DNA of 13,215 nt from Nevskiales bacterium (GTDB lineage Bacteria > Pseudomonadota > Gammaproteobacteria > Nevskiales > Nevskiaceae): assembly GCA_022616655.1 (NCBI GenBank), contig JAKEEJ010000159.1:1-13215 (forward strand). Direction: 5' to 3'. Below the pieces are notes generated by a model, which was not told the origin of the DNA, made no database searches, and was given only the letters and a program-made list of their open reading frames with translations. Made by a program: the position numbers and the translations under genes. Every line of letters begins with the position of its first letter. The stretch's first letter is position 1. Shown here piece by piece: positions 1,267-13,010 of this stretch.

Positions 1267-2403
1267 ATGAACGCCAAACCTTATCTCTACGTTTCAGCTT
1301 CGATATTCACCCTGATGGCGCTGATGCATCGGGTGCGTATCCTTCAGGGTTGGCCGGTGCAGTTGGGGGAGCAGACGATCCCCATGACCGCCTCCTGGGT
1401 CGGGATCGTCATCGCCGGTGGCCTCGCCCTGTGGGGCTTCTGCGCCCGCGCGGACGGTGGCCGCCAAACCGTTGTGAACCGTGCAGGCTTTGCAGGTTGC
1501 GGAATCGTCGGCCGGATGACGGCCGGCCTGTTTCTGGCAGCCTTGCTGTTGTCCGCCCCAGTCCGTTTCGCCGAGGCCGCAGCGGAGGATGTCGAACTCA
1601 TCGAAAACCTCGCCTATCGGGAAGGTAACCCGGCCTGGACGCTTGATCTGGCACTACCCCGGTCACAGGGATCTACGCGGCGTCCCGCCCTGGTCATCAT
1701 TCACGGGGGCGGCTGGCGCAGCGGCGACAAGGCGGATGCCCGGTTTCGTAATTTGCTGTTCGAATATGCCGTCAAAGGCTACGTCACCGTTTCCCTCAAC
1801 TACCGGCTGAGCGGCGAAGCCCCGTTCCCGGCCAGCGTGGAGGACGTGAAGACGGCGGTCCGCTGGTTGCGTGCCCACGCTGGAAAATACGATGTGGATC
1901 CCGGACGCATCGGTGCTTACGGTAACTCGGCCGGTGCCCACCTGGCCGCGATGCTCGGGCTGGTCGGTCCCGACGTCGGCCTGGAAGGCGACGGCCCGTA
2001 TCGGGATCAGTCCAGCCTTGTGCAGGCCGTGTGTGTGTCCGCCACAGCCACCGACTTCATTCATTTCGAAGGCGGGAACGGGAAAAATGCGGTTCAGCAA
2101 TTCCTGGCTGGACCTGCCGCATCGCTCTCCGAGCGGACACGACGGGCATCACCCCTGACGTACGTCCACGCAAAAGCACCGCCATTTCTGATCATTCACG
2201 GCACGAACGACGCCACGGTCCCGTTCAGTCAGGGAGCATCGCTGGCCGAAGCGCTCAAGACGGCCGGTGCAAACGTCACCTTCCTGGAAATCAAAGAGGG
2301 CAGCCACAAAGCGATGTTCGAGAAGGGATCGGTGACAAAACCGGCCATGGAGGCATTTTTCGCACGCACCCTCAAGCCGGCCGCAAAGAACACAAAGTCA
2401 TGA
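1267..2403 (+). CDS. Alpha/beta hydrolase (BD-FAE/esterase-lipase type) with N-terminal membrane extension
   Basis: 378 residues in two parts. Residues ~107-370 are an alpha/beta hydrolase of the HSL-like/feruloyl-esterase-like group: oxyanion motif HGGGW at 146-150, nucleophile elbow GNSAG with Ser221, acid in HGTND (Asp315), and base in GSH (His347), so the triad is complete. The substrate is unknown; a small carboxylester is likely. Residues 1-62 have two hydrophobic segments (about 7-25 and 43-60) and resemble a small stand-alone membrane protein. A third hydrophobic segment beginning at Met84 (MTAGLFLAALLL) looks like an ordinary signal peptide. Three segments would place the enzyme outside the inner membrane. 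I chose the start at 1267 because of its strong Shine-Dalgarno; the internal ATG at 1516 has none. The gene overlaps the next by ATGA at 2400-2403. An assembly or real mutation that removed a stop between two former genes is an alternative. Confidence 0.85.
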   Translation: MNAKPYLYVSASIFTLMALMHRVRILQGWPVQLGEQTIPMTASWVGIVIAGGLALWGFCARADGGRQTVVNRAGFAGCGIVGRMTAGLFLAALLLSAPVRFAEAAAEDVELIENLAYREGNPAWTLDLALPRSQGSTRRPALVIIHGGGWRSGDKADARFRNLLFEYAVKGYVTVSLNYRLSGEAPFPASVEDVKTAVRWLRAHAGKYDVDPGRIGAYGNSAGAHLAAMLGLVGPDVGLEGDGPYRDQSSLVQAVCVSATATDFIHFEGGNGKNAVQQFLAGPAASLSERTRRASPLTYVHAKAPPFLIIHGTNDATVPFSQGASLAEALKTAGANVTFLEIKEGSHKAMFEKGSVTKPAMEAFFARTLKPAAKNTKS

Positions 2404-3371
2404 GGGTTACAGGAAAGGCCGTGCCTCATGTCTTGAAGACGGTACTGATCGCGTGTGCCGCTTTCGTTCTGGGTGGAATCCAGTGCATGGCGGCCCCGGT
2501 TCCGGGTACGGTTGCGCGAACCCTCGAGGTCGGCACCTTGAGCCGTACGTATTACCTGCATGTACCCTCCAACCTGCCGAAAGACATGGCCGTGCCCCTG
2601 GTGCTGATGTTTCACGGTGGCAGCGGCACACCGGCCTTTGCCGAACGGGAAAGCAAATTCAGTGAGCTGGCGGATCGGGAGCATTTCCTGGTCGCTTACC
2701 CGGAAGGCATCGGCAAGAGCTGGAACGATGGCCGTGGAGTCCAGGCCATTAAGGCCCAGCGCGACGAGGTGGACGACCTCGCTTTCATTTCGGCGCTGCT
2801 GGACGACGTGGCTAAAGACTACAAGGTGGATCCCAGGCGGGTGTTCTCCACCGGTATCAGCAACGGCGCAATCTTTTCGCACTACCTGGCGGCGAACCGG
2901 TCGTCACGGATTGCAGCCATCGCGCCGGTGGTGGGCGGATTGCCGGAGCCCTCGAGCGTTCACTTCAAGCCGGAGCAGCCGGTGTCGGTGCTGATTCTGC
3001 AGGGGACCGATGATCCGCTGGTGCCTTATAACGGTGGCGACGTGACGCCGCCGGGAGTGGGCAAGCGCGGCAAAATCGTCGCCACGGACGAAGCGGTCAG
3101 GCAGTGGGTCGCACACAATGCGTGCCGGCGCGAGCCAGTGACGGAAGATCTGATGGACACGAATGCCGCCGACGGCTGTCGTGTGAAGAAGTTCACCTAT
3201 GCGAAGGGCAAGGACGGCACGGAAGTGGTGCTCTACCGGATGGCGGGAGCCGGTCATGCCTGGCCGGACGGATTGCAATATCTGCCCGAAAAAATCATCG
3301 GCAAGGTGTGTCGTGATTTCGACGGCGCCGCGGTCATCTGGGAGTTTTTCAAGGCGCATCCGAAGCCGTGA
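2400..3371 (+). CDS. Exported esterase, LpqC / PHB-depolymerase / feruloyl esterase family
   Basis: 323 residues. The N-terminus is a signal peptide: a basic region (RVTGKAVPHVLK), a hydrophobic core at about 13-28, and a probable cleavage near MAAPVPG (30-36). There is no proper lipobox, so it is probably soluble and periplasmic or secreted. The hydrolase core has FHGGSG at 71-76, nucleophile elbow GISNG with Ser154, QGTDDPLVPY with the likely acid at Asp204 or Asp205, and GAGHAWP with His286. This pattern is that of the COG3509 polyhydroxybutyrate-depolymerase/feruloyl-esterase group; the actual ester substrate cannot be read from the sequence. Cys242 and Cys260 could form a disulfide. The frame stays open upstream into the previous gene, but the ATG at 2400 makes the signal peptide N-terminal and gives an ATGA overlap with the preceding hydrolase. 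Two exported hydrolases in tandem suggest a shared role on extracellular esters. Confidence 0.88.
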   Translation: MRVTGKAVPHVLKTVLIACAAFVLGGIQCMAAPVPGTVARTLEVGTLSRTYYLHVPSNLPKDMAVPLVLMFHGGSGTPAFAERESKFSELADREHFLVAYPEGIGKSWNDGRGVQAIKAQRDEVDDLAFISALLDDVAKDYKVDPRRVFSTGISNGAIFSHYLAANRSSRIAAIAPVVGGLPEPSSVHFKPEQPVSVLILQGTDDPLVPYNGGDVTPPGVGKRGKIVATDEAVRQWVAHNACRREPVTEDLMDTNAADGCRVKKFTYAKGKDGTEVVLYRMAGAGHAWPDGLQYLPEKIIGKVCRDFDGAAVIWEFFKAHPKP

Positions 3372-3395: not shown

Positions 3396-4292
3396 ATGAA
3401 AGATCCCTCCGCGGATTCCCTTTTCGGTCTGCTGCAGCCGGCCCGGCGGACCGCAGTGGTGGACGTCGGTGCAAACCCGATTGACGGGGTTCCGCCGTAC
3501 AAGCCCCTGCTGGACCGGGGGTTGTGCACGGTCGTCGGCTTTGAACCGCAGAAATCTGCGTTGGACGTGCTCCAGAAAAATCGGGGGCCGCTCGAAACCT
3601 ATCTGCCGTATGCGATAGGGGATGGCTCCGTGCAGACGCTGCACATTTGTGCGGCTCCGGGAATGACCGGTTTTCTGAAGCCGGATGTGCGCTCGCTCTC
3701 CATCTATACGCCTTTTCTGGAATTCGGGCGGGTGGTCGCCACGGAGCCGATGCAGACGCACACGCTCGACTCCATTGGGGAGATAAAAGCGCTCGATTTT
3801 CTCAAGATTGATGTTCAGGGCTCGGAGCTGGCCGTGTTCCGCTCCGGGCGGCAGAAGCTGGCCGGAGCCGTGGCCGTTCAGACCGAGGTTTCGTTCGTAC
3901 CGCTCTACGAGAACCAGCCCCCGCTCGGACTCCTCGATACGGAGCTGCGCGCCCAGGGGTTCATCCCACATGCCCTGGCCGAACTCCGGCGATGGATGAT
4001 CTCGCCGTTGATGAGAAACAACGACCCGCACCGCCCCTTGAATCAACTGCTCGAAGCGGACCTGGTCTACGTGCGTGACTTCCGGAACCCGGAATCGTTG
4101 ACGGACGAGCAGTTGAAACATCTGGCCCTGGTCGCGCATCACGGCTATCGCTCGTTCGACCTTGCCCTGTTCTGTCTTCTGGCGCTGGAGAAGCGGGGCC
4201 GCCTGGCGCACGGGGTGCAGGATTTTTACCTGGGTCTGCTTCGTTCCATCAAGGCTGGAGAAAAGGACAGCGAAACAAAGGGGCGCGGGTAA
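3396..4292 (+). CDS. FkbM family SAM-dependent methyltransferase
   Basis: 298 residues. The SAM-binding motif I is VVDVGANPIDG at 21-31, the acidic end of beta-2 is GFEP (Glu50), and DFLKIDVQGSEL at 134-145 is the hallmark FkbM/Methyltransf_21 segment. A ~90-residue C-terminal tail (LTDEQLKHLALVAHHGYRSFDLA) is seen in FkbM proteins tied to sugar or surface-polysaccharide modification. Family members O-methylate sugars, polyketides or related hydroxyls; the acceptor here is unknown. It begins 24 bases after the esterase stop and has no clear Shine-Dalgarno. A tiny reading frame (3373-3399, eight codons) ends in an ATGA overlap with this start and could couple translation. No glycosyltransferase or polysaccharide genes are adjacent. 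It may be the last gene of the hydrolase set, or independent. Confidence 0.88.
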   Translation: MKDPSADSLFGLLQPARRTAVVDVGANPIDGVPPYKPLLDRGLCTVVGFEPQKSALDVLQKNRGPLETYLPYAIGDGSVQTLHICAAPGMTGFLKPDVRSLSIYTPFLEFGRVVATEPMQTHTLDSIGEIKALDFLKIDVQGSELAVFRSGRQKLAGAVAVQTEVSFVPLYENQPPLGLLDTELRAQGFIPHALAELRRWMISPLMRNNDPHRPLNQLLEADLVYVRDFRNPESLTDEQLKHLALVAHHGYRSFDLALFCLLALEKRGRLAHGVQDFYLGLLRSIKAGEKDSETKGRG

Positions 4293-4309: not shown

Positions 4310-4331
4310 ACGGTTACAGACTCTTAACCGT
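4310..4331. terminator. Inverted repeat between convergent genes, possible weak terminator
   Basis: ACGGTTA (4310-4316) and TAACCGT (4325-4331) form a perfect 7-bp stem around an 8-base loop, between the FkbM gene and rmuC. The right arm lies in the last codons of rmuC and includes part of its TAA stop. Neither strand has a T-run after the stem, so it does not meet the intrinsic terminator model. Its position between convergent genes is the main argument for a termination or mRNA-end role. Confidence 0.25.
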
Positions 4332-5529
4332 CGTCAGTTGCTGCAGGTAGCGATTCGGGCTCCGTGCCTTTCGGTAACTGTTTGCTGGTCTTGGCGCCGA
4401 GCTGCTTGAGTTCTTCCGCGCGGTCCACGAGGCTGCCGCGGCCTTCGGAGAGCTTGTTGCGCGCAGCCTGGTAGGCCTTGCCGGTGGTGTCGAGGGCACG
4501 GCCGAGCTTGTCGAGGTCATCCACCAGGCCCACGAACTTGTTGTAGAGCCTGCCGGCCTTGTCGGCGATGTCGGCGGCATTGCGGCTCTGGCGCTCAAAG
4601 CGCCACAGGTTTTCCACGGTGCGCAGGGTGGGCAGCAGGGTGGAAGGGCACACCAGACCGATGTTGCGCGCCAGTGCTTCCTCAAACAGCCGTGGCTCGG
4701 TGCGTACGGCCTCGATATAGGCGGCTTCGCTCGGCACGAACATCAGCACAAAGTCCAGCGTCTGGAGGCCGTCCAGATTCTGGTACTCCTTGGCGGAGAG
4801 CGACTGCACGTGCGTGCGCACCGAGGCCACGTGCTCGGCCAGGGCGGCAGCGTGTGCTTCGTCGGTACCGGCTTCGGTGGCGCGCACAAAGGCGGCGAGC
4901 GAAACCTTGGCGTCAATCACGATATCGCGGTGGTCGGGCAGGTGTACCACCGCGTCCGGCCGCCGCCGTCCGCCATCCTCGGCCCTGGCGGTGAACTGTG
5001 TTTCGTACTCGCGGCCGCGCGTGAGTCCGGACTGTTCCAGGATGCGTTCCAGAATCATCTCGCCCCAGTTGCCCTGGGTTTTGCTCTGGCCCTTGAGGGC
5101 GGTGGTGAGGTCGCGCGCGTCCTCGGCGACTTTCTGGTTGAGGTCCTGCAGGCTGCGAATCTGCTGGAACAGGGCAACGCGGTCGCGGGTTTCCTTGTCG
5201 TAAGTGTCCCGGACCTGCTGCTCGAAGCCGCTGATGCGTTCGCGCAGGGGTTTCAGGATCTGCTCGAGATTTTCGCGGTTCTGGTCGGTGAAGCGCCTGG
5301 ATTTGTCTTCCAGGATGTCCTGGGCGAGCTGTTTGAAGCGCGTTTCAAGCATGGGCGCCTGCACGGCGGCGTTTTCGCGCTCGGTCGCCAGGGCGGCCTG
5401 TGCGCCGGCCAGCTCACTTTGGGTTTTTACCAGCGCTGCCGCCGCGCGAATTCCGGCGAAAAGATAGCCGACCAGGGCGCCGGCAAGCGCGGCACCCAGC
5501 GCGAGCGCGGCGGCGGCTAGAGAACTCAT
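4324..5529 (-). CDS. rmuC: DNA recombination protein RmuC
   Basis: 401 residues. An N-terminal membrane anchor spans about 3-26 (Ala/Leu/Gly-rich). A charged, Gln-rich helical stretch at ~30-150 is probably coiled coil. The RmuC domain follows: NWGEMILERILEQSGL at 154-169, RPDAVVHLPD at 190-199, IVIDAKVSL at 203-211, and the KEYQNLDGLQTLDFVLMFVP segment. RPD...IDAK resembles a PD-(D/E)xK nuclease core. Loss of RmuC in E. coli alters rates of recombination at inverted repeats, and it is assumed to act in DNA metabolism as a nuclease-like factor. It is somewhat shorter than the E. coli protein (~475 residues), mainly outside the core. The gene lies 45 bases downstream of the HNH gene on the same strand, so they may be cotranscribed. 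There is no obvious Shine-Dalgarno before the ATG at 5529. Confidence 0.95.
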   Translation of the reverse strand: MSSLAAAALALGAALAGALVGYLFAGIRAAAALVKTQSELAGAQAALATERENAAVQAPMLETRFKQLAQDILEDKSRRFTDQNRENLEQILKPLRERISGFEQQVRDTYDKETRDRVALFQQIRSLQDLNQKVAEDARDLTTALKGQSKTQGNWGEMILERILEQSGLTRGREYETQFTARAEDGGRRRPDAVVHLPDHRDIVIDAKVSLAAFVRATEAGTDEAHAAALAEHVASVRTHVQSLSAKEYQNLDGLQTLDFVLMFVPSEAAYIEAVRTEPRLFEEALARNIGLVCPSTLLPTLRTVENLWRFERQSRNAADIADKAGRLYNKFVGLVDDLDKLGRALDTTGKAYQAARNKLSEGRGSLVDRAEELKQLGAKTSKQLPKGTEPESLPAATDDG

Positions 5530-5574: not shown

Positions 5575-6156
5575 TCAGTGATGGGCGTGGCGGGGTGCGC
5601 GGTGATGCGACGTGTGCTTGCGCGCGAAGGCCTGCAGGAATTCCATCTGGTCTGCCAGGATGCGGCGGTTCTGCAAAATCAGGTACTCCGCCAGATTGGG
5701 CGTGTAAGGTACGGCCAGCAGTTTCATGCCGGCTTCTTCCGGCAGGCGGTCGTCCTTGCGCTGGTTGCAGTGCTTGCAGGCGGTGACGCAGTTCTCCCAC
5801 ACGCATCCGCCCCCGCGCGAGACGGGGACGACGTGATCGCGCGTGAGCTGCGAGGCGGGGAACTGGTGCCCGCAGTACAGGCACAGATTGTGGTCGCGCT
5901 GGAACAGGGTGCGATTGTTCAGCAACGGTACGCCGCGCTCGAAGCGCCGCGAGCGGTCGCCGACGGCAACAATCGAGCCGATTTCAACCTGCGAGGGTTG
6001 CCCGGTGGCCGCGCAAATGCCGCCGTGAATGACAAAGCGCTGCTTGCCCGCTTCCCACACGATGCGGTCGCGGGCGTAGAGCGTGACGGTGGACTGCCAG
6101 GAAATCCACGACACCGGCAGCCCGCCGGTATCCAGTTTTAGGACGGCGGGGATCAT
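5575..6156 (-). CDS. HNH endonuclease family protein
   Basis: 193 residues. The HNH/zinc module lies at 92-131: CLYC (C92, C95), TRDHVVP (D107, H108), WEN (N122), then CKHC (C127, C130) followed by Asn131. Two CxxC pairs bind a structural zinc, and the His/Asn residues form the betabetaalpha-metal nuclease site. An N-terminal ~75-residue segment (VLKLDTGGLPVSWISWQ) and the following NLAEYLILQNRRILADQMEFL segment match a conserved stand-alone proteobacterial family of unknown role, not a phage or intron HNH. The C-terminal tail is His-rich (HTSHHRAPRHAHH). I use the ATG at 6156; a TTG three codons upstream (6165) is the alternative, and neither has a good Shine-Dalgarno. Its position before rmuC hints at a DNA-metabolism pair, but this is context only. 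Confidence 0.88.
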   Translation of the reverse strand: MIPAVLKLDTGGLPVSWISWQSTVTLYARDRIVWEAGKQRFVIHGGICAATGQPSQVEIGSIVAVGDRSRRFERGVPLLNNRTLFQRDHNLCLYCGHQFPASQLTRDHVVPVSRGGGCVWENCVTACKHCNQRKDDRLPEEAGMKLLAVPYTPNLAEYLILQNRRILADQMEFLQAFARKHTSHHRAPRHAHH

Positions 6157-6177
6157 TTCAGTCAATGGCCAATTGCC

Positions 6178-6266: not shown

Positions 6267-7169
6267 CTACTCGTCAAACGATTGCGCCAGTTGTTCGCGC
6301 AGCCACAGGTTGGCCGGTTCTTTGTCTGCATTGGCGTGCCAGTAGAGGTAGGCGTCCAGCGGCGGCATGTCGAAGGGCAGGGGCAGGATCTGGTTGCCGA
6401 ACGGCCGGTTGGTGACGCGCGCGTAGTGCCGGGGCATGGTCAGGATCAGGTCCGTCTGGCTCACGACCCGGCACGCGGCGAAGTAGTGCTGGCAACGCAG
6501 GCGGATGCGGCGTTTGAGGCCCTGGCGGCTGAGCTCCATATCCTCAACTCCTGGTCCTGTGCGGCGTGAACTCACCAGAATATGGTGCAGCCGCAGGTAA
6601 CTCACGAGGTCCAGCTTCTTCCGCACCACGGGGTGTCCCTTGCGCGCGACCACGACCATGCGGTCGAGCGAAATTTTCCGACGGCGGATGTCGTCGGACA
6701 GTGGCAACTGCACGTCCAGTGCCACGTCCAGTGCGCCCGAGGACAGCCCCGACTCCAGGTCGCGCCGTTCGGCGTGTACGGCGGAGATGTCCACCGACGG
6801 AGCGTCGCGGCTCACGCGTTGCAGCAACGGTGGCAGCACGGTCGGCTCCAGCACGTCGCGCAGCGCCACCGTGAAGTGTTTCTGCGTGGTGGCGGGATCG
6901 AAGCATTCGAGTTCGTTCAACGCGATTTCCAGGCCGCGCAAGGCCCGGCGCACCGGTTCGATCAGGGTACGTGCCAGCGGCGTCGGTACCGTCGTGCGCC
7001 CTTCGCGCGCAAACAACGGGTCGTCAAACAGGTGGCGCAGGCGGCCGAGCGAATGGCTGAGGGCGGGTTGCGTCAGGTGCAGTTTGCCGGCGGCCCGGGT
7101 CAGGGTGCCCTCGGTGTAGATCGTGTCCAGCACCACGAGAAGGTTGAGGTCAATCCTGCTTAGATGCAT
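6267..7169 (-). CDS. LysR-type transcriptional regulator
   Basis: 300 residues, the normal LTTR length. The N-terminus IDLNLLVVLD begins the winged helix-turn-helix, with the recognition region in GTLTRAAGKLHLTQPALSHSLGRLR (about 21-45) and DDPLFAREG/PTPLA following, as in the NodD/PnbR-like LTTR subgroup. The rest (from ~90) is the effector-binding domain, with TLRFTVALRD-like start (HFTVALRD) and typical LDVALDVQLPLSDD. It is transcribed away from the acyl-CoA operon that starts 89 bases to its right. By LTTR convention it should regulate that operon and itself, sensing a pathway intermediate, perhaps an acyl-CoA or hydroxyacid (inference). The ATG at 7169 has no Shine-Dalgarno but is the normal N-terminus for the family. 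Confidence 0.93.
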   Translation of the reverse strand: MHLSRIDLNLLVVLDTIYTEGTLTRAAGKLHLTQPALSHSLGRLRHLFDDPLFAREGRTTVPTPLARTLIEPVRRALRGLEIALNELECFDPATTQKHFTVALRDVLEPTVLPPLLQRVSRDAPSVDISAVHAERRDLESGLSSGALDVALDVQLPLSDDIRRRKISLDRMVVVARKGHPVVRKKLDLVSYLRLHHILVSSRRTGPGVEDMELSRQGLKRRIRLRCQHYFAACRVVSQTDLILTMPRHYARVTNRPFGNQILPLPFDMPPLDAYLYWHANADKEPANLWLREQLAQSFDE

Positions 7170-7258: not shown

Positions 7259-7987
7259 ATGGGACAGATCTATCTGGTACGTCACGGCCAGGCCTCGTTC
7301 GGCGCGGCCGACTACGACCAGTTATCGGAAGTGGGGACCGAGCAATCGCGCCTGCTGGGGCGCTGGTTTGCCGGATGTGGCCTGCGCTTGGGCGGGGTCG
7401 TGACGGGCAGCCTGCGGCGTCACCGACAGACGGCCGAGGCGTGCACGTCGGTGCTGCCGGCGGCGTTCCGGCCGCCGGCGGCATGGTCCACCGATCCGGG
7501 GTTTGATGAATACGATCATCACCAGGTGTTGGCTCGTTACCGGCCGGAGTTTTCCAGTCTGGCGGCGACCCACGAGATTCTGGCCCGCGCCGGAAACCCG
7601 CGCCGGGCGTTCCAGCAGATTTTCTTCGAGGCCATGCAGCGCTGGATGAGCGGTCGCCACGATGCGGAGTATCGTGAATCCTGGTCCGGCTTCCGGGCCC
7701 GGACGGCCGCGGCACTGCAACGTCTGATTGAACAGACCGGACCCTCACAAACCGCCGTCGTGTTCACGTCCGGCGGGCCGATCGCCGCCATTTGCCAAGA
7801 ACTGTTGAACGTCCCGGAGGCCAAGGCCCTGGAGCTGAACACCGTGATGGTCAACAGCGCCGTCACCCGACTGCTCTATCGGTCGGACCGGCCGGACGGG
7901 CCGGATCGCCGGATCAGTCTCAGCTACTTCAACAATTTTGCGCATTTGGAACAGACCCGACAGCCGGACATCATCACTTACCGTTAA
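7259..7987 (+). CDS. Histidine phosphatase (PGAM-like) family protein
   Basis: 242 residues. The N-terminus MGQIYLVRHGQAS carries the RHG motif with the phospho-accepting His9 and Arg8. SLRRHRQTAE at 51-60 supplies the second phosphate-binding Arg, and Glu84 in FDEYDHH is the likely acid. The usual second catalytic His of the family (VxxHGG) reads VVFTSGGPI at 167-174, so Ser171 occupies that place. The start at 7259 puts beta-1 at the N-terminus as usual; in-frame ATGs at 7184 and 7214 would add residues without homology and run through the promoter/operator. It is the first gene of the operon and its TAA overlaps the next ATG (TAATG). Family members remove phosphate from small molecules; here it may act on a phosphorylated acyl-CoA intermediate made by the kinase three genes downstream (inference). 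Confidence 0.85.
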   Translation: MGQIYLVRHGQASFGAADYDQLSEVGTEQSRLLGRWFAGCGLRLGGVVTGSLRRHRQTAEACTSVLPAAFRPPAAWSTDPGFDEYDHHQVLARYRPEFSSLAATHEILARAGNPRRAFQQIFFEAMQRWMSGRHDAEYRESWSGFRARTAAALQRLIEQTGPSQTAVVFTSGGPIAAICQELLNVPEAKALELNTVMVNSAVTRLLYRSDRPDGPDRRISLSYFNNFAHLEQTRQPDIITYR

Positions 7988-8775
7988 TGGGAGACACCGT
8001 GACTCATCCAGACCCCAAGAAGTTTTTCGATCTTTCCGGGAAAATCGCCCTCGTGACGGGCGCCAGTCGTGGCATCGGCGAGTCCATTGCCAAGACACTG
8101 GCCGCGTATGGCGCGCGGGTCATCGTTTCCAGCCGCAAGGCCCCCGAGTGCGAGCGGGTGGTGAAGGAGATCACGTCCGCCGGCGGCAAGGCCGAGGTGC
8201 GCACCTGCCATATCGGCGACCTGGACCAGATTCACTCGATCTTCGACGCGATCAAATCCGAGCACGGCCGTCTCGACATTCTGGTCAACAACGCCGCCGC
8301 CAGCCCGTATTACGGCCCCATCGTGGACACCGACCTCGGCGCGTTCCAGAAGACCGTGGACGTCAACATCCGTGGTTACTTCTTCATGTCGGCGCAGGGA
8401 GCCAAGTTGATGGCGAAGAACGGCGGCGGCGCCATCGTCAACGTCGCGTCCATCAACGGCGTGATTCCCGGTGATCTGCAGGGTATCTACTCCATCACCA
8501 AGGCGGCGGTCATTTCGATGACCCAGGCCTTTGCCAAGGAATGCGCCCCACAGCACGTGCGCGTGAACGCGCTGCTGCCCGGCGGGACCGACACCAAGTT
8601 CGCTGCCACCCTGATCCGGACCGACGTTTTTGAGAAGTTCAAGTGGCACATTCCGATGGGCCGTGCCGCGCAACCCGATGAAATGGCCGGCGCGGTGCTG
8701 TATCTCGTTTCGCCTTCGGCCAGCTACACCACCGGCGCCTGTCTGGTAGTGGACGGCGGTTACCTGGTGGTCTGA
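7987..8775 (+). CDS. Short-chain dehydrogenase/reductase (SDR), first of two
   Basis: 262 residues, classical SDR. The nucleotide-binding TGASRGIG is at 24-31, the NNAA motif at 101-104, catalytic Ser155 in NVASING, and YSITK with Tyr168 and Lys172. PGGTDT follows at 198-203 and the C-terminus ends DGGYLVV. Arg50 after beta-2 (VSSR) suggests NADP(H). Closest in style to the DHRS4/FabG-like SDRs found beside acyl-CoA dehydrogenases. It could interconvert a 3- or 4-keto and hydroxy group on an acyl-CoA; in levulinate catabolism an SDR (LvaD) reduces the 4-keto group, so an equivalent role is possible. Start choice is open: the ATG at 7987 overlaps the upstream stop, whereas GTG at 7999 has GGGAG five bases before it and gives 258 residues. 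Confidence 0.92.
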   Translation: MGDTVTHPDPKKFFDLSGKIALVTGASRGIGESIAKTLAAYGARVIVSSRKAPECERVVKEITSAGGKAEVRTCHIGDLDQIHSIFDAIKSEHGRLDILVNNAAASPYYGPIVDTDLGAFQKTVDVNIRGYFFMSAQGAKLMAKNGGGAIVNVASINGVIPGDLQGIYSITKAAVISMTQAFAKECAPQHVRVNALLPGGTDTKFAATLIRTDVFEKFKWHIPMGRAAQPDEMAGAVLYLVSPSASYTTGACLVVDGGYLVV

Positions 8776-8795
8776 TCCCGGATCAAACAGCACCC

Positions 8796-9626
8796 GTGAA
8801 AGACCTCAAAGGAAAAACCGCCGTCGTCACCGGCGCCGCCAGCGGCATCGGGCGCGAGCTGGCGCTCCTGTGCGCGCAGGAGGGCATGCACACGGTGCTG
8901 GCCGACGTGGACGAAAACGGCTTGCGGGAAACCGCCGGCCTGCTGCCGCCCGGCGCGCGACATACGGAAGTGAAATGCGACGTGGCCCGGCCGGACAGTG
9001 TGGAGCGCCTGGCCGAACAGACCTATGCGACGTTCGGCGCGGCGCATCTGCTGTTCAACAACGCCGGCGTTTCCGTGGGCGGGCCAGCCTGGACCGCGAC
9101 GCCGGAGGACTGGAAGTGGGTGTTCGACGTGAATCTGATGGGGGTGGCGTACGGCATCCGCAGCTTTGTGCCGCGCATGCTGAAGCAGGGCGATGAATGC
9201 CACGTCGTCAACACCGCCTCGGCCGCGGGGCTGGTGTCCACGCCGGGTGTCAGCCTCTACACCGTCAGCAAGCACGCGGTGGTGGCGCTGTCGGAGTGCC
9301 TGCATCACGACCTGCAGCTGGCGCGGGCGTCCATCCGCGTATCCGTCCTGTGCCCGGCGTTCACCAACACCCGGATTGTGGACTCGGCGCGCAACCGCCC
9401 GGCCGATCTGGCCGCGAGTGGGCCCGCCTCGGAAGCGCTTGAGAGACGCCTCCGCGAGGCGGTGCGCAAGGGCCGGCTCAGTGCCGCCGACGTCGCGCGT
9501 TGCGCCGTGGACGCCGTCAAGGCGGACCGCTTTTACATCCTGACGCACCCCGCGATCAAAGGCGCCGTCGAAACGCGCCTGCGTGACATTCTCGAAGAAC
9601 GTCTGCCCACCAATCCCATGCCATGA
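8796..9626 (+). CDS. Short-chain dehydrogenase/reductase (SDR), second of two
   Basis: 276 residues, classical [11 protein letters not shown] is at 12-19, Asp37 after beta-2 (LADVD) favours NAD(H), NNAG is at 88-91, catalytic Ser142 lies in NTASAAG, and YTVSK gives Tyr155 and Lys159. The C-terminal third ([19 protein letters not shown], then [10 protein letters not shown]) is the long type seen in SDRs associated with ACAD10/11-like genes. The different cofactor preference from the preceding SDR suggests that one reduces and the other oxidises. The start is GTG at 8796, 20 bases after the previous stop, placing the Rossmann strand immediately at the N-terminus. The stop overlaps the kinase start by ATGA at 9623-9626. 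Confidence 0.92.
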
Positions 9627-10711
9627 ACACACACATCGAAGACACTTTTGTCGGCACCATGCCGGTGCAGGAGCGGCATCGCTTCGATGTCGTCCGTCTG
9701 CATCAGTATCTGCGGGAGCACGTCAAGGATTTCGATGACGGCGGGCAGCCCTTGCGGATCGAGCAGTTCAAGGGCGGCCAGTCCAATCCCACGTTCCGGC
9801 TCGGCGCGGGTGCGCAGCATTACGTCCTGCGTCGCAAGCCCAGCGGCAAGTTGCTGCCCTCGGCGCACGCCGTGGACCGGGAGTACCGCGTGATCTCGGC
9901 GCTGCGCGATACCGCGGTGCCCGTCGCCCGGACGCACTGTCTCTGTGAGGACGAGAGCGTGATCGGTACCGCCTTCTACGTCATGGAATGGGTGGAAGGG
10001 CGGGTGTTCTGGGACCCGCTGCTCCCCGGTATGAACACGTCCGAGCGTACCCGGATCTATCGGGACATGAACCGCGTCATCGCGGCCCTGCACACCGTGG
10101 ACTGCAAGGCCGTGGGCCTCGAGAGCTACGGCAAGCCGGGCAACTACATTGCCCGGCAGATCGCGCGCTGGGGCAAACAGTACCGCGCCTCCGAAACGGA
10201 AACGATGGATGCCATGGACCGGCTCATGGAGTGGTTGCCGGCCAACATTCCGCCCGGCGATGAAACGTCCATCGTGCACGGCGACTACCGGCTCGACAAT
10301 CTCATTTTTCATCCCACCGAGCCGCGCATCGTCGCGGTGCTCGACTGGGAGCTCTCGACGCTCGGCCATCCGCTGGCCGATTTTTCGTACCACTGCATGG
10401 CCTGGCACGTGCCGTCGGGCGCGTACCGCGGCATGGCCGGGGCGGATCTTAAAGGTCTGGGTATCCCGTCTGCTGCGGAATACGTGACGGAATACTTCCG
10501 GAACACCGCGCGTGGCCCGGTGGATTCCAGCCACTGGGATTTCTACATGGCCTACAACCTGTTCCGCGCCGCGGCGATTCTGCAGGGCATCATGGGCCGC
10601 GTGGTCGGCGGCACCGCGGCCAGCGAGCACGCGCTGCAGGCCGGACGTGGCGCCCGCACCATGGCGGAACTTGGCTGGCAGCAGGTCGAGAAAATTCTGG
10701 CCCGGCGCTGA
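9623..10711 (+). CDS. ACAD10/11-type phosphotransferase (APH-fold kinase)
   Basis: 362 residues of the aminoglycoside-phosphotransferase-like fold. The glycine-rich nucleotide loop is [10 protein letters not shown] at 49-58, the ATP-binding lysine is probably Lys72 (VLRRKP), and Glu87 (REYRVI) may pair with it. The catalytic loop VHGDYRLDN at 218-226 holds His219, Asp221 and Asn226, and [15 protein letters not shown] at 239-253 supplies the metal-binding Asp241. This is the N-terminal kinase domain of mammalian ACAD10/11 as a free-standing protein, and relates to bacterial LvaA, which phosphorylates the 4-hydroxyl of 4-hydroxyvaleryl-CoA. The adjacent ACAD gene is the other half of that fusion. 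Antibiotic resistance is unlikely given the context. Substrate chain length is unknown. Confidence 0.92.
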
Positions 10712-10750
10712 AGTCCGGCGCCGGTTTAACACAACCCCTACTGGTACGAG

Positions 10751-11986
10751 ATGACGACGATGGAATTCGAATACTCCCAAAAAACCCGCGACCTGATGGC
10801 ACGTGTCATGGCCTTCATGGATCAGCACGTGTACCCCAATGAAAAGAAATTCGCGGAGGAAGTGGCCCAGGGCGACCGCTGGCAGCCGACAAAACTCATG
10901 GAAGCGCTCAAGGCCCAGGCCAGGTCACAGGGTCTGTGGAATCTGTTTCTGCCGGACTCCGAACGGGGTGCCGGACTGAGCAATCTGGAATATGCCCCCT
11001 TGTGCGAAATCATGGGCCGCGTGACCTGGGCGCCGGAGATATTCAACTGCTCCGCACCGGACACCGGCAACATGGAAGTGCTGGTGCGTTACGGCACGCC
11101 TGAGCAGAAGCAGCAGTGGCTGGAGCCGCTGCTGGAGGGAAAGATCCGCTCCTGCTTCGCCATGACCGAACCCGCGGTGGCGTCCAGCGACGCCACCAAT
11201 ATCGAAAGCACGATCCTGCGAGACGGCAGTCACTACGTGATCAACGGCCGCAAATGGTGGTCCTCCGGCGCCAACGACCCGCGCTGCGCCATCTTCATCT
11301 TCATGGGCAAAACCGACCCGCAGAATCCGGACCGGCACCAGCAGCAGTCCATGATTCTGGTCCCGCGCGACACGCCCGGTGTCCGTGTGCTGCGTCATCT
11401 GCCGGTGTTCGGTTTTGACGATGCCCCCCACGGCCACGCCGAAGTCCTGTTCGAAAGCGTGCGCGTGCCGCTCACCAACATGCTGTTGGGCGAGGGCCGC
11501 GGTTTTGAGATCGCGCAGGGCCGGCTCGGTCCGGGCCGGATTCACCACTGCATGCGCCTGATCGGGCTGGCGGAGCGGGCGCTGGAACAGATGTGCCGGC
11601 GCACGCTGGCGCGCGTCGCTTTCGGCAAACCGGTGGCGGCCCAGACCGTCACGCTGGAACGCATCGCCGAGTCGCGCATCCGGATTGATCAGGCGCGGCT
11701 GCTGACACTCAAGGCCGCGCACATGATGGATACCGTTGGCAACAAGGCGGCCGCGCGCGAGATCGCCATGATCAAGGTCGCCGCGCCCGCCATGGCCTGC
11801 CGCGTCATAGACTGGGCTATCCAGGCGCACGGCGGCGGCGGCGTAACCGATGATTTCGGATTGTCCAGTGCTTACGCCTATGCGCGCACGCTGCGTCTCG
11901 CCGACGGTCCCGACGAAGTGCACCGCAACCAGATCGGCAAGATGGAACTGGCTCGGTACGTCCCCAAGCATTCCGTAAAGTCATAG
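10751..11986 (+). CDS. Acyl-CoA dehydrogenase family protein, ACAD10/11 (LvaC-like) type
   Basis: 411 residues. The helical N-terminal domain is followed by [18 protein letters not shown] at 135-152 and GRKWWSSGA at 166-174 (FAD and substrate contacts), then the C-terminal four-helix domain with [11 protein letters not shown] and the [12 protein letters not shown] flavin segment. The Gly-rich signature [13 protein letters not shown] and the closing [18 protein letters not shown] are characteristic of the ACAD10/11 subgroup. Where medium-chain ACADs have the catalytic Glu of YEGT, this protein has Asp385 (ADGP). In the known pathway this enzyme acts on the phosphorylated 4-hydroxyacyl-CoA, eliminating phosphate and giving an enoyl- or 3-hydroxyacyl-CoA for beta-oxidation. 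It follows the kinase by 39 bases. The ATG at 10751 is used; Met4 is a possible alternative. Its TAG stop overlaps the next gene's Shine-Dalgarno. Confidence 0.93.
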
Positions 11987-11990
11987 GAGA
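11985..11990 (+). promoter_or_regulatory. Ribosome binding site of the oxidoreductase gene
   Basis: AGGAGA overlaps the TAG stop of the acyl-CoA dehydrogenase gene and sits six bases before the ATG at 11997. It fixes the start and shows tight coupling of the last two operon genes. Confidence 0.75.
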
Positions 11991-11996
11991 CTCTGC

Positions 11997-13010
11997 ATGT
12001 CTGCGATCAATCATCAGTTCAAGCTCATCCAACGCCCCGTGGGCATGGTGGGCCGCAGCAATTTCGAATACACCCAGACCCCGGCGCCGGAACCGGGAGA
12101 GGGCGAATTTCTGGTCAAGGTGCTGTACCTCTCGCTGGATCCGGCCATGCGTGGCTGGATGAACGACAGCAAGTCCTATATTCCGCCGGTGGGTCTCGGC
12201 GAGGTCATGCGCGCGGTGGCCGCCGGCCGCGTGATCGCTTCCCGGCATCCGAAGTTCCCGGTGGGGGCACACGTGACGGGCCTCTTCGGCGTGCAGGAAT
12301 ACGCCGTGTCCAACGGCAAAGGCGGCGTCGCTCTGGTGGATCCCACGTTGGCGCCGTTGCCGGTGTATCTGGGCACGCTGGGCATGCCGGGAATGACGGC
12401 CTACTTCGGTCTGCTCACGGTGGGGGAGTTCAAGCCGGAGGATACCGTGGTGGTGTCCGGTGCTGCAGGTGCGGTGGGACAGGTGGCCGGTCAGATCGCC
12501 CGGATTAAAGGCGGCCGGGTCATCGGCATCGCTGGAGGTCCCGACAAATGCCGGTATGTGACGCAGGAGCTGGGGTTCGATGCCTGCATTGATTACAAAC
12601 ACGAAGACGTGAAGACGGTTCTTAAAACACACTGTCCCAAGGGCGTGGATCTGTACTTTGACAACGTCGGCGGAGACATTCTCGACACGGTGTTGACCCA
12701 ACTGGCCCTGCACGCGCGCATTGTCATCTGTGGCGCCATCTCGCAGTACAACGCCACCGGGCCGGCAAAGGGGCCCAGCAATTATCTTTCGCTCCTGGTG
12801 AATCGCGCCACGATGAGGGGCATGGTGGTCTTTGACCACGTGGCGCAGTTTCGCAACGCGATGCAGGACCTGGCCGGCTGGATGAAGGAGGGCAAGCTGA
12901 AAACGCGCGAAGACATTGTGACCGGGCTGGAGAATTTCCCCGAGGCCCTGCTGAAGCTGTTCCGCGGGGAAAATACCGGCAAACTGGTTCTGAAGGTCGC
13001 TGACGCCTGA
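11997..13010 (+). CDS. NADP-dependent oxidoreductase, CurA / prostaglandin reductase-like MDR
   Basis: 337 residues, zinc-free medium-chain dehydrogenase/reductase. The N-terminal catalytic domain has YLSLDPAMRGWM at 44-55, a family signature, and GMPGMTAYFGLL at 129-140. The NADP-binding fold carries VSGAAGAVGQVAGQIAR at 153-169, then GGPDKCR, and VDLYFDNVGG; CGAISQYN is also typical. Homologues (CurA/YncB, PTGR1/2, plant alkenal reductase) reduce the C=C bond of enones and 2-alkenals with NADPH. As last gene of the operon it could saturate an alpha,beta-unsaturated aldehyde or ketone before the acid enters the CoA-bound steps (inference). The 10-base gap and good Shine-Dalgarno indicate cotranscription with the dehydrogenase. 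Confidence 0.93.
   Translation: MSAINHQFKLIQRPVGMVGRSNFEYTQTPAPEPGEGEFLVKVLYLSLDPAMRGWMNDSKSYIPPVGLGEVMRAVAAGRVIASRHPKFPVGAHVTGLFGVQEYAVSNGKGGVALVDPTLAPLPVYLGTLGMPGMTAYFGLLTVGEFKPEDTVVVSGAAGAVGQVAGQIARIKGGRVIGIAGGPDKCRYVTQELGFDACIDYKHEDVKTVLKTHCPKGVDLYFDNVGGDILDTVLTQLALHARIVICGAISQYNATGPAKGPSNYLSLLVNRATMRGMVVFDHVAQFRNAMQDLAGWMKEGKLKTREDIVTGLENFPEALLKLFRGENTGKLVLKVADA

Follow-up and report, generated by a model that had tools for sequence, protein, structure and literature searches.

The animal proteins ACAD10 and ACAD11 combine an APH-fold kinase with an acyl-CoA dehydrogenase (ACAD) domain. Two-step phosphorylation-elimination chemistry has been shown for the mouse proteins (PMC12440821), and the same chemistry for the human proteins and a bacterial orthologue pair (PMC11342911). 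Human ACAD10 and the bacterial pair, which consists of free-standing LvaA/LvaC orthologues acting sequentially, converted 4-hydroxyhexanoyl-CoA to its phospho form and then to hexenoyl-CoA (PMC11342911). The HAD domain of ACAD10 keeps one of two catalytic aspartates and has negligible phosphatase activity, and mutating the aspartate that is left raises kinase activity (PMC11342911). The bacterial lva operon follows a kinase-ACAD-oxidoreductase logic for 4-hydroxyacyl-CoA; published lva clusters include a short-chain dehydrogenase/reductase (SDR), and the kinase cluster of Pseudomonas citronellolis LA18T, reported in 2019, brings together a phosphotransferase, a histidine phosphatase, an acyl-CoA dehydrogenase, and an SDR (PMC6692424). 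The 12-kDa protein LvaB of P. putida binds LvaA, and no lvaB was found in P. citronellolis (PMC6692424). Here we describe a six-gene operon of a Nevskiales bacterium, located on one entire contig (C46, 13,215 bases; hereafter, the window) of a 1.26-Mb assembly that is 76% complete. The operon encodes a kinase and a dehydrogenase of the ACAD10/11 kind as separate proteins, together with a histidine-phosphatase-fold protein belonging to a subfamily in which serine replaces the second catalytic histidine.

Organization of the operon

The first-pass annotation had marked six co-directional open reading frames (ORFs) at 7259-13010, and these coordinates were confirmed, with the addition of a divergent LysR-type regulator gene. 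Spacing is operon-like: the histidine-phosphatase gene and the first SDR gene (SDR1) share 1 base, the last 4 bases of the second SDR gene (SDR2) are also the first 4 of the kinase gene, the dehydrogenase gene begins 39 bases past the kinase end, and the two remaining gaps are 20 and 10 bases. No LvaB-like 12-kDa gene is present beside the kinase. All six proteins exceed a Pfam gathering cut-off. The proposed lack of an acyl-CoA synthetase or thiolase beside the operon also held, none being found among the 13 window ORFs scanned; the contig stops about 200 bases past the last operon gene, and anything farther downstream is out of view. Five AMP-binding and three thiolase-family matches occur elsewhere in the host assembly.

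Like ACAD10 and ACAD11, the operon joins an APH-fold kinase and an ACAD with the same active-site residues, the kinase being on the ACAD11 side. Unlike in animals, these are two proteins encoded by adjacent genes, a separate histidine-phosphatase-fold protein replaces the HAD domain, and SDRs and an enone reductase are added. The kinase-ACAD-oxidoreductase logic is shared with the lva operon, but there are no genes for a synthetase or transporter among the scanned ORFs and none of LvaB size among the operon genes, and LysR, not LvaR, is adjacent. The P. citronellolis cluster differs in having levulinyl-CoA synthetase, a symporter, and LvaR nearby, and no enone reductase or second SDR is mentioned in the available text of that report. 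A further proposal of the first-pass annotation, that the accessory steps are absent from the lva operon, was not supported in that form: an SDR is also present in lva clusters already described. The pairing of a phosphatase and a kinase in one catabolic operon, called notable there, is not new in itself because the P. citronellolis cluster has both (PMC6692424). Already in print are the core chemistry, the bacterial split pair, and the histidine phosphatase in one lva cluster; the serine subfamily and its genome-wide tie to the kinase come in addition to these.

The kinase and the dehydrogenase

Among solved structures, the predicted 4-hydroxyacyl-CoA kinase (9623..10711, +) comes closest to 3dxp, at 484 bits, and to the kinase domain of mouse ACAD11 (8v3v, 293 bits). 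Its BLAST identity to the mouse domain is 41%, compared with 29% between LvaA and the ACAD10/11 kinases (PMC11342911). In a kinase tree of 133 rows, with the window present twice and ACAD10 left out, 27 distant sequences (26%-37% identical to the window kinase) formed a clade with a support of 0.998, and both the window kinase and mouse ACAD11 fell outside it, the exact position of ACAD11 on its side not being fixed by this tree. The distant clade presumably contains LvaA. Residues D221, N226, and R178 of the window kinase align with D220, N225, and R176 of mouse ACAD11. For R86, reported as a modelled contact to the CoA moiety, the mouse segment has F at position 86 and Arg at position 84 in our numbering, and the aligned window residue is Y88.

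A role of the APH-fold kinase in aminoglycoside resistance was rejected, since the APH(3') model gave 34 bits against a cut-off of 205 and the best relatives are ACAD11 and 3dxp. At two other loci, the kinase lies in a long open frame, of 741 residues in L296 (95-2317) and of 795 in L297 (261-2645), with an N-terminal extension of about 390-455 residues. No second Pfam domain scored over its cut-off in these frames, so they may be mere open frames rather than fusions.

The ACAD10/11-type dehydrogenase (10751..11986, +), predicted to eliminate phosphate, matched ACAD11 (8v3u, 8v3v, and 2wbi) at about 500 bits and 4hr3 at 486 bits, with the remaining acyl-CoA dehydrogenases at about 140 bits or less. 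Its identity as an ordinary fatty-acid enzyme was rejected on these scores (below 140 bits for SCAD/MCAD types vs about 500 for ACAD11). Its named relatives include Fontimonas thermophila (82%). In mouse ACAD11, R626, H634, R637, and the catalytic D753 form a site that may recognize the phosphorylated substrate and is common to LvaC (PMC12440821). The corresponding residues of the window dehydrogenase are R258, H266, R269, and the catalytic D385; all four occur in 219 of 219 aligned rows, the window included, and this conservation is partly built in because the rows were chosen by score (at least 390 bits). By homology, the pair is of the ACAD10/11 kind, as initially proposed; neither the kinase tree nor the active-site residues put it outside the ACAD10/11 and LvaA/LvaC proteins.

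The histidine-phosphatase-fold protein

The first gene of the operon (7259..7987, +) encodes a protein with the fold of branch 1 of the histidine phosphatase superfamily (PF00300, 68.1 bits vs a cut-off of 21.7). An antisense ORF over this gene hides it from greedy gene calling. The canonical branch 1 pocket consists of two histidines and two arginines. The window protein shares with branch 1 members such as CobC, PhoE, and PGAM5 the fold, the RHG motif (R8-H9-G10), the second arginine (R54), and the acidic residue (E84), but the pocket is incomplete, the second catalytic histidine being Ser171 (in TSGG). Serine occupied this position in every subfamily member examined, including all 43 found at the loci studied here, and H9, R54, and E84 were invariant in the same 43. 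Outside the subfamily, the histidine was kept by all 31 distinct superfamily members examined, many of which are phosphoglycerate mutases, and it is also present in the five PDB relatives shown.

The control and further phosphatases came from 50 loci, a selection from the PF00300 matches of 21 genomes; L294 and L295, which repeat L246 and L247, were left out. The serine counts likewise leave out 13 kinase-distant phosphatases of the 299-genome draw described below and six kinase-near ones (G063, G186, G098, G230, G102, and G301). Serine was also uniform in the best 120 of 7,369 phosphatase homologues, which is expected because these are close relatives. One close relative of the window protein is named Nevskiaceae; with Fontimonas among the dehydrogenase relatives, this makes it probable that the host belongs there too. 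Two serine-subfamily phosphatases (L300:753-1475, +, and L301:1-1059, +) have RHA in place of RHG. Neither the serine subfamily nor its genome-wide tie to the kinase was found in the literature searched, which excludes most subscription papers, and a search for histidine phosphatases without the second histidine turned up only papers on tyrosine-phosphatase pseudo-enzymes.

Association of the phosphatase with the kinase

The phosphatase and the kinase were sought in 299 genomes of the phylum, drawn once and regardless of the phosphatase, with cut-offs of E 1e-18 for the phosphatase and E 1e-35 for kinases of either clade. The phosphatase was present in 37 genomes and the kinase in 87, and every one of the 37 phosphatase genomes also had the kinase (Fisher p 1.8e-23, a value that ignores genome relatedness and is not readable as a probability). 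At 25 of 38 phosphatase places, a kinase lay within 5 kb. Forty-two of the 43 serine phosphatases were in the 220 neighborhood loci described below or in the window. The kinase and the dehydrogenase were both nearby for 23 of them, the dehydrogenase alone for 18, and the kinase alone for 1, in loci that had been fetched by a kinase or dehydrogenase match.

In our reading, the protein is the kinase's partner and may be a phosphatase in modified form or a pseudo-phosphatase; the half-inactivated HAD domain of ACAD10 is a possible parallel. Its role could be pictured in two ways. It may be an active 4-phosphoacyl-CoA phosphatase, serving as a safety valve or repairing dead-end phospho-products, with Ser171 adjusting the active site to the phosphate ester of an acyl-CoA. 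We give this a real chance, though one short of even. The nucleophile histidine, R54, and E84 are invariant, which a dead enzyme would not require, and this points to an enzyme that works, perhaps one suited to a bulky acyl-CoA phosphate. The linkage to kinases points the same way, and phosphate removal was proposed for the P. citronellolis homologue (PMC6692424). The conservation of these residues speaks against the other picture, a non-catalytic protein that binds, stabilizes, or inhibits the kinase and is comparable to LvaB or to the HAD domain of ACAD10, which we hold to be slightly less probable. Such a binding or regulatory role is favored, and catalysis disfavored, by the serine seen throughout the subfamily where the other superfamily members examined have histidine. 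The non-catalytic role also agrees with the P. citronellolis cluster, which has a phosphatase-family gene and no lvaB found, and with the binding of LvaA by the 12-kDa LvaB (PMC6692424). In ACAD10, a phosphatase-like domain that has lost one catalytic aspartate and has negligible activity restrains the kinase (PMC11342911), which again argues for a regulator rather than an enzyme. On the other side, some genomes carry the phosphatase away from the kinase, and the interaction is a candidate one drawn from sequence comparison.

Gene neighborhoods in relatives

Gene neighborhoods were compared in 220 loci of about 4-21 kb (L026-L245) and the window, with counts made by direct hidden Markov model matches and with both members of two same-genome pairs (L041/L236 and L031/L106) kept. 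In the relatives set, neighborhoods were taken for 18 of the 38 non-host genomes with a kinase match. For 88 of the 104 kinases of the window clade, an ACAD10/11-type dehydrogenase was encoded on the same strand and no more than 5 kb away; by the same measure, a phosphatase-fold gene was found for 16, SDR1 for 11, SDR2 for 12, and the reductase for 11. The 10 distant-clade kinases had the dehydrogenase in 10 cases, the phosphatase in 8, and SDR1 in 4. The linkage is partly built in because the loci were fetched by a dehydrogenase or kinase match.

A survey of six-gene linkage, suggested in the first-pass annotation, recovered the full set in the window and five relatives (L229, L231, L232, L233, and L234), all of the same taxonomic order as the window. 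Gene order was identical, and each gene was 50%-82% identical to its window counterpart. The L228 and L230 loci are interrupted by contig ends, and the Fontimonas locus (L027) lacks the phosphatase. In other taxa, the pair often occurs with beta-oxidation genes, and several of the neighborhoods displayed hold enoyl-CoA hydratase, thiolase, and AMP-ligase genes (for example, L050, L052, L059, and L235), which fits delivery to beta-oxidation.

In 14 genomes of Oxalobacteraceae, Duganella, Rugamonas, and Noviherbaspirillum among them, the phosphatase and the dehydrogenase occur together, with a divergent LysR gene in 13. The fetched stretches contained no kinase, and a kinase with 57%-64% identity was found elsewhere in each of the 14 genomes. 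In L030-L049 and L071 of this family, the arrangement phosphatase-(SDR1)-dehydrogenase is conserved, and a LysR gene diverges from it in most cases. In family f11 (nine genomes), the dehydrogenase adjoins LysR, and the only kinase found, elsewhere in the genome, was distant-clade-like (35%-37%). The existence of a dehydrogenase without a kinase in these two families was rejected, as a kinase was found in 26 of 26 genomes searched (in the nine of f11, of the distant type only). Two f11 kinase loci have the order phosphatase, SCP2-domain protein, kinase, and SDR1. The SCP2 frames (L298:2602-2973, -, and L299:1485-1889, +) span 124 and 135 residues from stop to stop, about the size quoted for LvaB, and LvaB might be of the SCP2 kind.

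The oxidoreductases and the flanking genes

SDR1 (7987..8775, +) exceeds the cut-off of NF005446/PRK07035 and is inferred to be a candidate 4-oxoacyl/4-hydroxyacyl oxidoreductase; its relatives adjoin the kinase at other loci. No solved structure was found for it at E 1e-50, the sole threshold searched. SDR2 (8796..9626, +) exceeds the cut-off of NF004843/PRK06194 and has 5ig2 as a solved relative. The predicted difference in cofactor use between them is reflected in the sequence by S-R-K after beta-2 in SDR1, which we take to be NADP-like, and D in SDR2, presumably NAD-like.

The last gene (11997..13010, +) encodes an enone/alkenal reductase-like protein of the medium-chain dehydrogenase/reductase (MDR) family (PF16884/PF00107), with 4b7c as its best solved relative and 5zxn and prostaglandin reductases among the others. 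Its designation as an alkenal/enone reductase stands as a family match, but not as a specific CurA or LTB4-DH identity: the name stays at family level because the protein scored 388.9 bits with the CurA curcumin reductase model NF058644 (cut-off 440) and was also under the LTB4-DH cut-off. An additional MDR gene (PIG3-like, quinone-oxidoreductase-like), missing from the window, lies between SDR2 and the kinase gene in L027 (7933-8925), L228, L229, and L232. Alpha/beta hydrolase genes were observed within or just past the operon in L231 (6930-7808, -), L233, L234, and L229 (5379-6338, -). In some relatives, the dehydrogenase gene is followed by DUF2855 or alpha/beta hydrolase genes, and in three full-operon relatives a gene of one alpha/beta hydrolase cluster is placed between the dehydrogenase and reductase genes. 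The L231 hydrolase, the one scanned, gave weak enol-lactonase/lactonase-family scores, hinting at lactone substrates.

The divergent LysR-type gene (6267..7169, -; Pfam HTH_1 and LysR_substrate) probably encodes the local regulator of the operon, as divergent relatives adjoin the phosphatase or dehydrogenase genes in full-operon and Oxalobacteraceae loci. Farther upstream are genes of the HNH-nuclease (5575-6165, -) and RmuC (4324-5529, -) families. The rest of the window encodes a radical SAM protein with DUF3641 (204-1223, +), which we presume to resemble ArsS, a BD-FAE-type esterase (1267-2403, +), a PHB-depolymerase-type esterase (2031-3371, +), and an FkbM-type methyltransferase (3396-4292, +).

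Proposed pathway and its significance

The operon probably enables the entry of 4-hydroxy, and likely also 4-oxo or enone, acyl compounds into beta-oxidation via a 4-phospho intermediate, with the phosphatase-fold protein as a dedicated partner. In the steps inferred to lie upstream, the MDR reductase would saturate the C=C bond of an enone or alkenal, and an SDR would interconvert 4-oxo and 4-hydroxy groups. By orthology, a CoA ligase encoded elsewhere would produce 4-hydroxyacyl-CoA, and the kinase would phosphorylate its 4-hydroxyl. The dehydrogenase, using FAD, would then perform oxidation, phosphate elimination, and re-reduction to yield 2-enoyl-CoA, which could be degraded by ordinary beta-oxidation encoded elsewhere. 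The two-step mechanism is proposed here because human ACAD10 and the bacterial orthologue pair showed it (PMC11342911). The histidine-phosphatase-fold protein may limit or tune the 4-phosphoacyl-CoA pool. The substrate class would comprise 4-hydroxy acids, gamma-lactones, 4-oxo acids, or alkenals. No paper connecting ACAD11, bacteria, and lipid-peroxidation products turned up in a literature search.

Several observations weigh against this scheme. The complete six-gene set was found in one taxonomic order only. The upstream order of reductase and SDR is taken from family names, and the reductase is under curated cut-offs. No phosphatase match at the cut-off was obtained in 50 of the 87 kinase genomes, 13 of the 38 phosphatase places were not within 5 kb of a kinase, and one genome of the same genus (G001, 79% complete) gave no kinase match although it encodes a serine-type phosphatase (L288). 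From these last three points, the phosphatase seems to be an optional component, a partner to the kinase system in those genomes that carry it. Action on other hydroxyacyl-CoAs, such as those from terpenoid or steroid side chains, or on an aromatic-derived enone, instead of 4-hydroxy fatty acids, is unlikely: two SDRs and an enone reductase do seem excessive for simple 4-hydroxy acids, and the hydrolase gene in three full-operon relatives and the weak lactonase-family scores in L231 would suit it, but the four residues associated with the handling of 4-phosphoacyl-CoA are all conserved, and the pair has beta-oxidation neighbors in other taxa.

The boldest reading, offered tentatively, concerns the histidine phosphatases with the serine variant, a large subfamily that may run to several thousand proteins (serine having been checked in the nearest 120 and at these loci). 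These proteins might be dedicated regulatory partners of bacterial 4-hydroxyacyl-CoA kinases. Bacteria and animals would then have independently recruited damaged phosphatases, each short of one catalytic residue, to restrain this kinase and hold back 4-phosphoacyl-CoA build-up.

It was not until 2024-2025 that ACAD10/11 were assigned the 4-hydroxyacyl step of the pathway. Control of the phospho intermediate is still open in mammals because the HAD domain of ACAD10 restrains the kinase without measurable phosphatase activity, and a bacterial operon with separate proteins offers a simple system for how this intermediate is controlled. If the serine-type phosphatases are the bacterial form of this control, many proteins now named "broad specificity phosphatase PhoE" would gain a specific role.

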